Shown here: positions 1,570 to 50,030 of the stretch, in pieces | Numbering within the stretch: position 1 is the stretch's first letter | Layout: each line of letters begins with the position of its first letter | Assembly (NCBI GenBank): GCA_019310525.1 | Contig: JAFDEE010000005.1 | Span: 1-50,030 of the forward strand | Reading direction: 5' to 3' | From: Deltaproteobacteria bacterium | GTDB lineage: Bacteria; Desulfobacterota; DSM-4660; Desulfatiglandales; HGW-15 | Length of the DNA stretch: 50,030 bases | Notes under the pieces: model-generated | The model's input: the letters and a program-made list of their open reading frames with translations, nothing else | Told to the model about the DNA's origin: nothing | The model's database searches: none | Program-made: the position numbers and the translations under genes

Positions 1570-1712
1570 GAGACCTTTGAAAAACGTCCTCTTTTGCCCA
1601 ATCTCTGCGTCAGGCTCAAATTTGAATCCTCGAAATACTTCAATGTATTCCTGCGGTTAAAATTTTCGCCTTCCTTGACCTTGAACAAAATTGAACGTTT
1701 TTCAAAGCTCTC
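1570..1712. repeat. Palindromic MITE-like element, type A ends
   Basis: This 143-bp non-coding element fills most of the fliC-fliD gap. It begins GAGACCTTTGAAAAACG, and its other end reads GAGAGCTTTGAAAAACG on the opposite strand (one mismatch in 17). ATTCC flanks it on both sides (1565-1569 and 1713-1717), consistent with a 5-bp target duplication. Its core at 1625-1683 is present in inverted orientation at 24870-24928 with only two mismatches in 59 bases, although that second element has quite different ends. No protein is encoded. Confidence 0.8.
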
Positions 1713-16684: not shown

Positions 16685-16701
16685 GTGCCCGTCCATAAAT
16701 G
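16685..16701. repeat. Solitary end of the GTGTCCATCC repeat family
   Basis: GTGCCCGTCCATAAATG matches the 17-bp terminal repeat seen at 24841 and 50002 at 15 of 17 positions. No partner end is found nearby, so this looks like a relic. It lies between the divergent promoters of the yceD operon and the 16939 gene. Confidence 0.5.
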
Positions 16702-19918: not shown

Positions 19919-20051
19919 GTCTTCCCGGTGGGTCCCCGGTTTGAGCCTGACCTGTCTGCCGTGCCTGCCTGTCCCGTTGGAACGGCAGATAGGCCCGGCA
20001 CAGGCAGGCGCAGAAATTGGGCAAAAGGGGGCGTTTTTCAAAAGTCTCGGG
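19919..20051. repeat. Degenerate palindromic intergenic repeat
   Basis: This stretch after tilS combines parts of the repeat family. Bases 19930-19951 are identical to 24971-24992, and 20009-20049 (AATTGGGCAAAA...GCGTTTTTCAAAAGTCTC) matches the right part of the element at 1570-1712 read in reverse. Between them sits a GC-rich palindrome (about 19952-20008) rich in GCCTGCCTG/CAGGCAGGC. Bases 20052-20208 hold nothing I can identify. Confidence 0.7.
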
Positions 20052-23306: not shown

Positions 23307-24596
23307 CTATTGGATCTCGGGAATGATGTTGCCTCCTGAGGGGAAGACCGCGACATCACATTGCGGCATCACGTCCGCCACGCGGTTTACGGCCTCTTGA
23401 AGGTTTGCGGCATACTCGTATTTCATCATCTCCACCTGTTCCTTGCTAAGGCCTTCGGTGACGTGGATGACCCGGAACCTTTCGGCCAATTCCTTAAAGT
23501 AAACCACCTGCATGATGTAGGAGATCCCGAACTGCCTGAGGTGTTCGGGGATATCCCCCGAGAGCAGTCTGCGGTGAAAATCACTTGCCGTCTCGTCGCT
23601 TCCCATTTCCCGGATCAAGGGCATGATGGGTCCGGCCTGTGTCTGGGGCGCGACCCAGATGATGGTGCCGCCCGACCGTGTACAGAAACCCGCCATCACG
23701 AGGGCCTTGGTGGATTGAACGCCGATCTCTAAGGGATAGGCCGAAATGACGGTGACATCCGCAAGCCTCGGGATAGACACCTTATAGAGGTTCTCCGCAA
23801 AGGCGGCGGCAGCCCTCTGTTCCTCCACCGGGTCCCCGGAAAAGGCCCTGAGGATCTCCTTCTTCTCATTCATGACCAGATCCACCTTGAAGACCATGGT
23901 GGAAAGCCGCCCCGCATCCACGATTTCCTCCCAGAAATAATTTTTTTCCAACAAGTTGACCCGGCAATTGTGGTGGCGCATCCAAACGAAATGGTGGTCC
24001 GCGATGGTCCGGTATGAACAGACCCCCGGCATGATAAGCTTGAACCCTCCCCCATACCCGGCGATGGGATGGGGCATGCATTCACCTACTCCCACAGCAA
24101 GATCCGCGGAGGCCACGTGGGGATTAATCTCAACGAGGGTTCCCCGGCGGGTCCTGCCGATGATGACGTTGTCCGGTGCGTGGGGATCATGGCAAAACAG
24201 TCTCCCTTCGAGACGGGAAAAGACCGCTTCCCCCACCTTGCTCTTCAGTTGTTCGAGATCGAGGAGGGGATGGGTTCCAAGGGCGCACACACCCCTGATC
24301 CGTTCGTCCGGCACACCGGCCCGATTCAACCGGTCCATGATTTCCGGCAGCACAAGGTGCGCGGGGGTGGGACGCTGAAGGTCGTCAAAGAGGAGCGTTA
24401 CCTCCATCCCCGGCCCGGCCAAATCCTCGAGTCTGGGGGCCCCTACCGGGTGGTCCAAAGAACGCCTGACCTCCTGCAGGGGGTCTTCTACGCCTTTCAC
24501 AGGGGGGCGATCCTCCCCGGAAATCAGGCTCCAGCCTTCTGGGAGCGTGAATTCGATCCTTTTCTCCCCATAGTTCACGAAAGACTTCCTGTTCAT
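23307..24596 (-). CDS. LarA-family nickel-pincer racemase/epimerase homologue
   Basis: The 429-residue cytoplasmic protein belongs to the LarA (DUF2088) family. Family members racemise or epimerise 2-hydroxyacids using a nickel pincer nucleotide. The residues that hold the cofactor and catalyse in Lactiplantibacillus LarA are all present with a 1-2 residue offset: Arg75 in FDDLQRPTPAH, His109 in ALGTHPL, His176 and Lys186 in PHPIAGYGGGFKLIMPG (Lys184 carries the cofactor in LarA), and His202. Substrate cannot be assigned, since the family covers lactate, malate, sugar acids and others. No LarB, LarC or LarE gene is in the window. A TATAAT at 24635-24640 (minus) could be its -10. Confidence 0.88.
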   Translation of the reverse strand: MNRKSFVNYGEKRIEFTLPEGWSLISGEDRPPVKGVEDPLQEVRRSLDHPVGAPRLEDLAGPGMEVTLLFDDLQRPTPAHLVLPEIMDRLNRAGVPDERIRGVCALGTHPLLDLEQLKSKVGEAVFSRLEGRLFCHDPHAPDNVIIGRTRRGTLVEINPHVASADLAVGVGECMPHPIAGYGGGFKLIMPGVCSYRTIADHHFVWMRHHNCRVNLLEKNYFWEEIVDAGRLSTMVFKVDLVMNEKKEILRAFSGDPVEEQRAAAAFAENLYKVSIPRLADVTVISAYPLEIGVQSTKALVMAGFCTRSGGTIIWVAPQTQAGPIMPLIREMGSDETASDFHRRLLSGDIPEHLRQFGISYIMQVVYFKELAERFRVIHVTEGLSKEQVEMMKYEYAANLQEAVNRVADVMPQCDVAVFPSGGNIIPEIQ

Positions 24597-24840
24597 AAAT
24601 CCTCCTCCTGCGTTTGGAAAGGGGTTGAATCCAAATTATAGGTGTTTGGCGATGAACACAACTCGATCAAACAGGCGCCCTCCCTCCGCCACATGCATAA
24701 GGTGTGGCTCAGGTCGGGCGGACAATCTATCACATATAACTTCTTTCTTGACAGCAGGCTTTTTCATAGGTGCTTGAACGCTTGCCCGCTGGCTGTTTGG
24801 CGGGCTTGCCCCCCGGAATTATGGCGGGAACGTTAGCTTA

Positions 24841-25061
24841 GTGTCCATTCATAAATGAAAAAATTTGTGCAAGGTCAAGGAAGGCGAAAATTTTAACCAC
24901 AGGAATACATTGAAGTATTTTGAGGATTAAAATTTGTCCGCGCTGCGCTTGGACTCCCCACCCTTCGGGCGGGTCCCCGGTTTGAGCCTGACGCAGCTTG
25001 TCACGCCGTAGCCATAGCGAAGACGGAAGATTGCGGAAATTGGCCATTTATGGATGGACAC
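24841..25061. mobile_element. MITE-like element with TIRs and target duplication
   Basis: The clearest copy of the family: 221 bp, non-coding. The left end reads GTGTCCATTCATAAATG and the right end, on the opposite strand, GTGTCCATCCATAAATG (16/17 identical). TAGCTTA is duplicated exactly at 24834-24840 and 25062-25068. The core at 24870-24928 matches 1625-1683 in inverted orientation, while 24936-24977 matches 37828-37869 in inverted orientation and 24971-24992 equals 19930-19951. It opens a 1.46-kb gene-free interval (24597-26059). Confidence 0.88.
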
Positions 25062-25074
25062 TAGCTTAGATCAA

Positions 25075-25270
25075 AAGGGGCATGGGGATCTTTTCTTCGT
25101 TCCCGGTCTCACGGCCTGGTTATTTCAAGGGGTTAGTGACGGGGGATTCTTGCCCCCTCCGCCGATCTCCCGCTTTTACAAGCGGGAGCCGGGGCTTCCC
25201 CCATCCCTAACCCCTTGAAATAACGAAGGCCTCCCAACAGGTCACTTCAGAAAAGATCTCCATGCCCCTT
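25075..25270. repeat. Large hairpin element, copy 1
   Basis: Nested inverted repeats: an outer pair AAGGGGCATGGGGATCTTTT (25075-25094, continuing to 25096) with 25249-25270 (one mismatch), a middle pair TTATTTCAAGGGGTTAG (25120-25136) with 25207-25223, and an inner hairpin CTCCCGCTT (25167-25175)/AAGCGGGAG (25180-25188). The whole 196-bp unit would fold into one long rod. Its left arm recurs at 49948-50001. Confidence 0.8.
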
Positions 25271-25317
25271 CCCCCGGTGGTGCGGACATTCGTTTTCATA
25301 TGAAATACTTGATTCAG

Positions 25318-26059: not shown

Positions 26060-27373
26060 TCAGCGGCCGAGGAGCCCGGGCAACCAGAGGACCAAATCGG
26101 GCCAGGCGATGATCATGGTCATGGCGGCTATTTCGCACAGGATGAAGGGTACCGCCGCATAACAGATTTCCTTGATGTTGATATCCGCCGGGGCTACCCC
26201 CTTCATGACGAAAAGCAGCATCCCAAAGGGGGGCGTAATGAATCCGGTCTCGAAATTGATAAGCATCAGGACACCGAACCAAACGGGGTCGAATCCCAGC
26301 ATCTTAACGATGGGCATGAAGATGGGCATGCAGATCATCATGATGGAGATGGTCTCCATAAATGTCCCCATCACGAATATTATGACCTGCATCCCGATTA
26401 AAATCACCAGGGGCGGCACATGGAGCCCCTCCACCAGCCCAAGGAGCCCCTGGGTCGCTCCCGTATAGGCCAGAATGCTGCTGAAGGAGTTGGAGGCGGC
26501 GATGATCATGAACACCATGACCGAGATTTCCAGGGTCCCCATAATGGAGGCCTTGAGCATCCTCCAGGTCAATCTCCCGTAAACAAGAGTGACCAGGATC
26601 GTGGCCAGGGCCCCCGAAGCGGCCGCCTCCGTCGGAGTCGCCACCCCCAGCAACATGAGCCCCAGGACCATGAAGATGATGAATCCGAGCGGGATCACAT
26701 ACTTGACGGTTGCCGCAACCTTTTCGAAAAAGGACGCGGCCTCGACATCGTAACGGGGGGCCAGAGAGGGATTCAACCAGCACCGAATGATGATGTAAGA
26801 GGCGATCAGCCCTCCCAGGAGAAGCCCGGGGATGACACCGCCCACCAGAATCTTCCCCACCGATATATGCCCGATGCTCGCCAATACTACCGCAAGAGAG
26901 GATGGCGGAATGAGCATGGCCAATCCCCCGACCCCGATGATGGGGCCGACGGCCATGGAAGTCTTGTATCCCCTCCGCCGCATTTCAGGGAGCAGCACGG
27001 TTCCCAGCATCGCGGTGTTGGCCAGGGTCGAACCACTCAGGGCGGCGAAGAGCACGCCGGCGCCTGCGGCCAGCAGGCTTAAGCGCCCGGGAAGGCGGCC
27101 CAGCCACTTGTCGATGACATCTATTGTATTATTGGCGATGCCCGAGTGGAACATCAGTTCACCCATGAGGATGAACAGGGGAATCGGGGTCAGGGTGAAG
27201 GTGGAAAGTGAGGAGAAGATCTGGAGGGTAACCTGGTGGAGCCCCATGGGGCCCATGAAAATCAGGATCCCCAGTATATCGATCATCAGGAAGCCGAAGG
27301 CGATTGGGAACCCGGTGGCGAGCAGGATTATCAGCCCCAGGATGAAGAAGCTTAGAACGGCCCACCACTCCAT
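26060..27373 (-). CDS. dctM: TRAP transporter large permease (DctM-like)
   Basis: This is the main translocation subunit of a tripartite ATP-independent periplasmic transporter, 437 residues with about 12 hydrophobic segments. Family landmarks are visible: GFPIAFGFLMID near the N-terminus, LFILMGELMFHSGIA, the ALSGSTLANTAMLG loop, LLGVATPTEAAASGALA, and GFITPPFGMLLFVMKG near the C-terminus. ATG 27373 has GGAG 9 bases upstream; its RBS region contains the dctQ stop codon (TGATCATG), indicating translational coupling. Uptake is driven by an ion gradient. Confidence 0.94.
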   Translation of the reverse strand: MEWWAVLSFFILGLIILLATGFPIAFGFLMIDILGILIFMGPMGLHQVTLQIFSSLSTFTLTPIPLFILMGELMFHSGIANNTIDVIDKWLGRLPGRLSLLAAGAGVLFAALSGSTLANTAMLGTVLLPEMRRRGYKTSMAVGPIIGVGGLAMLIPPSSLAVVLASIGHISVGKILVGGVIPGLLLGGLIASYIIIRCWLNPSLAPRYDVEAASFFEKVAATVKYVIPLGFIIFMVLGLMLLGVATPTEAAASGALATILVTLVYGRLTWRMLKASIMGTLEISVMVFMIIAASNSFSSILAYTGATQGLLGLVEGLHVPPLVILIGMQVIIFVMGTFMETISIMMICMPIFMPIVKMLGFDPVWFGVLMLINFETGFITPPFGMLLFVMKGVAPADINIKEICYAAVPFILCEIAAMTMIIAWPDLVLWLPGLLGR

Positions 27374-27375
27374 GA

Positions 27376-27933
27376 TCACCCTCTCCTTTCCTCTGGTACT
27401 CCTTCCACTCCGCCCGGGCCCGGCGTTTCCGATCGCCCCCTGGTGCCTCTATCCGTCTCCGCCCGACGAAAAGAAGCAACGAGATTTCTCGCGAACTGGA
27501 GGCCCAGGGTAAGGAACCCGATGGGAATGATCACCAGAACGAGGTACTTAGGCACGTCCACGGCCTTTACATCCGTCACACCCCGTTGAAACTGGTTCCA
27601 GGTCACGACCAGGCTGTACCAGAAGAGCACCGAGCATACGCCCACACCCATGAAACCGTGCAAGATGTTGAAAACCCTTTTCGCCGGAGGTTTGAGCCGG
27701 GACGTGATGATGTCCATGGAGACGTGCTTGCCGCGCTTCAGAACCCAGGCCGATCCCAGGAAACACAGCCATAGAAGCGAGTACTCGTTGAACTGAACAG
27801 TCCAGAGGGGACTTCGGATTCCAACCAGGCGTGCGAAGATGCTGTAGCCGATCGAGAAGGCGAGAAAAAGGAGGAGAAGACCGGCCATGACCGCCATTGT
27901 CGCCAAAATCCTATCCAGGATTTTTCCAACCAA
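27376..27933 (-). CDS. dctQ: TRAP transporter small permease (DctQ-like)
   Basis: The 185-residue membrane subunit has four hydrophobic helices (about 12-35, 50-68, 90-110, 130-152), as is standard for DctQ. The signature WTVQFNEYSLLWLCFLGSAW with a following KRGKHVSMDI is clear. The start is taken as TTG 27933 because GGAGGAG lies just upstream; an in-frame ATG at 28035 would overlap the dctP 3' end. The C-terminal 30 residues are charged and polar. It sits between dctP and dctM. Confidence 0.88.
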   Translation of the reverse strand: MVGKILDRILATMAVMAGLLLLFLAFSIGYSIFARLVGIRSPLWTVQFNEYSLLWLCFLGSAWVLKRGKHVSMDIITSRLKPPAKRVFNILHGFMGVGVCSVLFWYSLVVTWNQFQRGVTDVKAVDVPKYLVLVIIPIGFLTLGLQFARNLVASFRRAETDRGTRGRSETPGPGGVEGVPEERRG

Positions 27934-37701: not shown

Positions 37702-37746
37702 ATGCTCGAAATTGACAAGGTTCTTTTCAAGGATGTCGTTACTTAG
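37702..37746 (+). other. Fourteen-codon ORF abutting a repeat insertion
   Basis: ATG 37702, behind AAAGGGGGTG, opens MLEIDKVLFKDVVT and stops at TAG, whose last base is the first base of the repeat at 37746. Deleting the repeat and one copy of the apparent TACTT duplication would give TGA at the same codon. The ORF was therefore equally short before the insertion, or the site had already decayed. It could be a leader peptide or chance. Confidence 0.25.
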
Positions 37747-37895
37747 TGCCCATCCACAAATGTATTTTGGGCACTTGCAAGTTTCCAATCCAGAAAAGAG
37801 CTGTTTTTCACGAGATCAAGGAACCTTGGGACCCAACCGAAGGGTGAAGAGTCCAAGCGAAACGCGGACAAAAGGAGCCATTTATGGATGGAAAC
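37746..37895. mobile_element. MITE-like element between signalling genes
   Basis: A 150-bp non-coding element whose ends read GTGCCCATCCACAAATG (left) and, on the opposite strand, GTTTCCATCCATAAATG (right). It is flanked by TACTT(A) and TACTT(G), an imperfect target duplication. Bases 37828-37869 are related in inverted orientation to 24936-24977. It separates the receiver gene from the Cache gene. Confidence 0.75.
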
Positions 37896-49907: not shown

Positions 49908-50001
49908 GGAGGCTGGTATCAAATTGAAGTACTCGCCGAATTAGATTGAAGGGGCATGAAGATATTTTCCTCGTTCCCGAGTATCACGGCCTGGTTATTT
50001 C
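49908..50001. repeat. Dispersed repeat segment interrupted at 50002
   Basis: Bases 49914-49946 match 25619-25651 and 49948-50001 match the left arm of the hairpin element at 25075-25126 (CATCACGGCCTGGTTATTTC-like end). Here the match stops at CTGGTTATTTC and a different terminal repeat begins at 50002, whereas at 25126 it continues AAGGGGTTAG. Confidence 0.75.
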
Positions 50002-50030
50002 GTGTCCATCCATAAATGCCCCTTTTCCCC
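50002..50030. mobile_element. Left end of a GTGTCCATCC element, cut by the window edge
   Basis: GTGTCCATCCATAAATG at 50002-50018 is identical to the right terminal repeat (complement) of the element at 24841-25061. The element continues past the window. It appears to have inserted into another repeat. Confidence 0.65.

Follow-up and report, generated by a model that had tools for sequence, protein, structure and literature searches.

In the window, the whole 50,030-nucleotide stretch of DNA that was analysed, a short element bounded by inverted repeats lies in intergenic DNA, flanked by one gene that is lactate-racemase-like (23307-24596, -) and another for a DctM transporter (26060-27379, -). 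A reading made from the sequence alone (the sequence-only reading) had described it as a MITE without a transposase, with 17-bp terminal inverted repeats (TIRs) and an exact TAGCTTA target duplication (TSD), and both were located as claimed at 24834-25068 (Table 1). The element at 24841-25061 measures 221 bp when the TIRs are counted, the interior being 187 bp, and holds no transposase ORF. Its conserved structured core, matched by model R1 at 24861-24957 (61.5 bits, E 2e-15), is interrupted by two insert modules, and with both in place the window copy folds better than 200 out of 200 shuffles (z -4.7).

Table 1. Features of the window element, related elements and end types. Positions are those of the window unless a locus is given; T1 to T5 are end types.
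Feature	Position	Strand	Sequence or duplication
Left target duplication	24834-24840	.	TAGCTTA
Left TIR, T1	24841-24857	+	GTGTCCATTCATAAATG
Conserved structured core, 5' part	24861-24936	+	
48-bp insert module, missing from 142-bp core copies	24937-24984	+	TCCGCG...GGTTTG
Core 3' strand	24985-24996	+	AGCCTGACGCAG
31-bp insert module, missing from 142-bp core copies	24997-25027	+	CTTGTCACGCC...GACGGA
Core end, pairing with core 5' end	25028-25044	+	AGATTGCGGAAATTGGC
Right TIR, T1	25045-25061	-	GTGTCCATCCATAAATG
Right target duplication	25062-25068	.	TAGCTTA
Second, diverged T1 MITE, 150 bp	37746-37895	+	TSD TACTTA/TACTTG
T1 MITE cut by contig end	50002-50030	+	
Lone decayed T1 end	16685-16701	+	
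143-bp T2 MITE	1570-1712	-	TIR GAGACCTTTGAAAAACG
Dispersed repeat with long inverted arms	25075-25271 and 49942-50001; L129:5824-5980; L128:17064-17224		
Autonomous IS, matching ends	L102		TAAATA
Autonomous IS, matching ends	L134, L135		TAATTA
Autonomous IS, matching ends	L136		TAGATA/TAGCTA
T3 ends			GAGGCTGTCCGAGAATG; 4-bp CTAG-like duplications
T4 ends			GAG[G/C]CA[A/G]TTTCAAAA; 4-bp duplications
T5 ends			GTGCCTGAACGAAAACT; TANNTA duplications

Matches to the T1 end with at most 3 mismatches numbered 7 in the window compared to 0.19 expected. The further ends reported earlier at 37746, 37895, 50002 and 16685 proved to be real, the first two being the two ends of one element. The MITE at 50002 sits behind TATTTC within another repeat, an unoccupied copy of which lies at 25075-25155. 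Next to the window element lies a dispersed repeat whose long arms are inverted (AAGGGGCATGGGGATCTTTTC...GGTTATTTCAAGGGG); MITEs are inserted in this repeat (target TATTTC) and alongside it (target TAGCTTA), at two loci and with different MITE subtypes.

The family was followed through the host genome (G000), a draft assembly of 3.78 Mb in 158 contigs that is 96.8% complete. The genome-wide search for the 17-mer that had been proposed returned 247 ends (136 + 111) at no more than 2 mismatches, and none (0 + 0) in the reversed control. Within the stretches read, 37 copies have paired ends, and 26 of these show an exact 6-7 bp duplication, compared to 3 of 1258 shifted-register comparisons; a recount gave 25 of 35 copies. 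The duplication consensus is TANNTA. The 7-bp duplication of the sequence-only reading is accordingly exact at the window copy but not typical of the family, where duplications are mostly 6-bp and TANNTA-like and reach 7 bp in four or five copies. Copy length ranges from 38 bp to 532 bp. The 38-bp element (L121 3996-4033; G000:C7:43995-44032) consists of two complete T1 ends with 4 bases between them and an exact TACCTA TSD, and is probably the result of deletion after insertion. Empty sites were identified in paralogous repeats as opposed to the window copy's own locus. When flanks are joined with a single duplication, those of L122 (TATTTC) match the unbroken repeat at L129:5824-5907 and window 25075-25155, and those of L004 (TAGTTC) match the unbroken repeat at L127:6784-6702. 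Tandem MITEs split by one common target duplication were also seen, as near-identical units at L099 3842-4199 and as different subtypes at L120 2867-3243.

With two positions relaxed, the T1 terminus is present in 37 of 85 genomes from the order. In G033, whose genome is a single contig, two such ends lie 1693 bp apart between TAAATA flanks (L102 2248-3940) and enclose a gene for a 455-aa DDE transposase, which matches NF033593, the model for the ISNCY family transposase, at 439 bits (cut-off 325). Related insertion sequences (IS) in G072, G077 and G006 carry the same ends and are flanked by TAATTA, TAATTA and TAGATA/TAGCTA, respectively, and intact ISNCY copies in the relatives span 1.66-1.70 kb. 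The full-length, transposase-bearing element with the same ends that had been suggested as a check is thus found in relatives and is of the ISNCY type. The nearest annotated plasmid kin of the relatives' transposase are ISRm17 and ISRle10, ~45% identical. A 15-letter stretch of the terminus returned no match in the literature. The earlier statement that no named family has this terminus does not hold, as ISRle10 and ISRm17 (ISNCY) end in GTGCCC[A/G]TCCATAAAC and are flanked by TAG[T/A]CTA, the ISRle10 plasmid copy having GTGCCCGTCCATAAACG ends and TAGTCTA at both flanks. These two resemble the window MITE in their ends and TAGTCTA-like flanks, are ~1.68 kb long and carry a transposase, whereas the MITE has none, nor was its interior detected in the IS.

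In G000, a profile search of the draft assembly found no intact ISNCY transposase and only 35 N-terminal residues at C57:12068. This relic (C57:12068-12172) is a truncated 5' piece with 74% DNA identity over 194 bp to a complete IS of a relative; it has a frameshift, after which the similarity breaks off. An intact copy of the relatives' element (L163, SOJY01000103.1) was also seen on a small contig binned with a Bathyarchaeum MAG, by contamination or transfer. Judging from shared ends and targets, an ISNCY-type DDE transposase (NF033593; ISRle10/ISRm17 kin) would recognise the GTGTCC ends and mobilise the MITEs in trans, inserting them at TANNTA-like sites and leaving 6-7 bp duplicated; the relatives show the ends, the target and the partner, and from these we infer the movement. 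The G000 copies have probably stalled, or would depend on an IS that the draft assembly lacks. The MITE reading is borne out by paired ends, by TSDs in the majority of copies, by empty sites in paralogous repeats and by full-length relatives that encode a transposase and have the same ends and target preference, and we are very nearly certain that the window element is a MITE, a non-autonomous DNA transposon, with ISNCY-type ends.

The core of these elements is ~104 nt long. It was detected in 51 of the 85 genomes of the order by BLAST and in 52 by covariance model; in the phylum sample, 86 of 395 genomes carried it, spread over 64 of 252 genera, the genomes surveyed being mostly draft MAGs. 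It was not found in phages, plasmids or viral contigs. No Rfam family scored above the gathering threshold, and matches to Rfam microRNAs, far below threshold, were discarded as generic hairpins. Copies in G000 carry optional hairpin-like modules at fixed core positions (CCTCCGG..CCGGAGG, CTGTCTGCCG..CAGGCAGGCG and CCCCGCTTGG..CCAAGCGGG; for example L118 7142-7315, L123 2473-2653 and L129 4130-4330), some of which are also present in other repeats. At the G033 loci L093-L112 the hairpin tip is replaced by a G+C-rich hairpin and the base retains its motif (TCAAGG / GACGC.GAGAT).

Were the element an ordinary ISNCY-derived MITE, its interior would be a leftover without function of its own, and hairpin and conservation would result only from its fold-back shape and from having spread recently. 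Hairpin folding is usual among MITEs, 102 of the 105 core copies lie outside ORFs, in intergenic DNA, and the orientation of the core to flanking genes, which is biased in G000 (18:6), is even in the other genomes (17:17), all of which fits this explanation. The manner in which the core varies, however, makes it unlikely. For 42 diverse copies the consensus fold is a single long hairpin that comprises 33 pairs and has internal loops that are conserved; CsrA sites or a kink-turn in these loops were considered by eye and are not proposed. In the wider sample of 105 copies 97.4% of cells pair, 20 of the 33 pairs vary in both partners and covariation scores 0.244, far above the shuffled (0.110) and slid (<=0.067) controls; having been fitted to the model, this alignment leans towards it, and the 42-copy alignment not fitted to structure gave a like picture, with 15 covarying pairs and a score of 0.226 compared to 0.064. 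A palindrome kept at the DNA level is expected to show G-U and A-C in roughly equal numbers. On the strand shown, 65 non-redundant copies hold 204 G-U cells and 17 A-C cells, and when columns with a G-U consensus are removed the counts are 59 and 17 cells, in 18 and 4 columns. Because G-U is found far above A-C, selection appears to act on one strand of the core, either as RNA or as folded single-stranded DNA.

The balance tips slightly towards the core being read as RNA, most likely within host transcripts. Its defined double-stranded structure, which might for instance serve as a hairpin for RNase III or for a binding protein, would make insertions tolerable. No general cis role in mRNA is claimed, because orientation is even outside the own genome. 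The covariation could also be explained by single-stranded DNA, with the core acting in folded form, for instance in replication or in the strand exchange that swaps ends. Folded DNA tolerates G-T wobble too, the other genomes lack an orientation bias towards genes, and the ends change where the core stays. We nevertheless hold this explanation to be improbable; DDE transposases of these families are not known to require single-stranded hairpins.

Copies in G000 that match the interior but not the T1 ends were found to carry GAGACCTTTGAAAAACG TIRs, termed T2. This type has 162 exact ends in G000 and duplications of 5 bp, observed in 11 of 19 copies in the own genome and 19 of 34 in others. The T2 MITE of the window is flanked by ATTCC (1565-1569 and 1713-1717) and bears the same core as the window element at 1589-1692 (-; 120 bits). 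A lone T2-type end was seen at 20032-20048. Types T3 to T5 are given in Table 1 and a sixth end type on the core was recognised by eye. The T3 partner is a 2.2-kb IS (L297) with T3 ends, CTAG on both sides and a gene for a transposase of the IS1182 family (398 bits; cut-off 270), while for T2 and T4 no convincing long end pair with a transposase was found. Since T1 and T5 may be served by one kind of transposase, the distinct systems bracketing the core, as told by TIR and TSD (6-7, 5 and 4 bp), are counted as at least four, with partners found for two (ISNCY and IS1182).

Core identity is 0.829 within an end type and 0.823 between types, and differently ended cores reach 96% identity, with one pair of this kind inside G000. 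The core tree shows 17 end-label changes with copies of unclassified ends left out, but it is built on 104 columns and has few supported forks, and as its well-supported branches force only few changes the number of exchanges is uncertain. Breakpoints, judged by eye, fall within a few bases of the TIR inner edge. An interior common to the ends of different transposase systems is a further argument against a leftover of a single IS, and a structured core that changes its ends is likely. Exchange would perhaps come about through a switch of template at the hairpin base.

The reading we prefer, at a probability of roughly 0.72, is a composite, namely a MITE moved by ISNCY that carries a hairpin core, likely RNA, selected on one strand and repeatedly changing its ends. 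One-strand selection would keep the hairpin, in line with its covariation and G-U excess, and by swapping ends the core would ride on ISNCY, IS1182 and at least 2 further systems, as the TIR and TSD types indicate. The alternative that the structured core might suggest, an immobile RNA or regulatory element conserved at one fixed place, is refuted by the TSDs of the dispersed copies and by the empty sites in paralogous repeats; the conserved RNA named earlier as evidence against a MITE is not seen at the window locus, and what is conserved and structured is the interior, which is compatible with MITE status.

Geobacter, the host group of the Chunjie MITE, is one that we take to be close to the window's host. 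Chunjie in Geobacter uraniireducens is 178-235 bp long, intergenic, variable in size and present in tens of copies (PMC10969869), and the window family is like this description in length, copy number, location and size variation. MRSC-65-2 has a single long stem that covaries, is present in dozens of copies in a genome, is suspected of a transposase link and has a conserved UYCCGG repeat (PMC11109978). The core resembles it in stem, copy number and suspected transposase link, but was not equated with it, as UYCCGG occurs in 2 of the 105 cores and is absent from the window element. The core may nonetheless be included among Chunjie and the 250 mobile or repeat structured motifs that have been counted (PMC10969869, PMC11109978). 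The window MITE differs in ends and hosts from Correia/NEMIS and ERIC. To our knowledge these two have one end type each. Their hairpins in transcripts are processed by RNase III or affect mRNA decay (PMC10969869).

The composite of an ISNCY-moved MITE and a selected hairpin core has consequences for how such elements are understood. MITEs are usually viewed as reduced versions of a single insertion sequence. One selected structured core wearing the ends of several unrelated IS across the phylum means that payload is separable from ends. Its copies provide hundreds of natural replicates for testing the role of MITE hairpins, and a concrete motif to probe. We give about even odds to the broader proposal that this phylum-wide structured RNA or folded single-stranded DNA is a persistent unit that survives by swapping the TIRs of unrelated transposases; if true, one payload would be moved by several incompatible machines.
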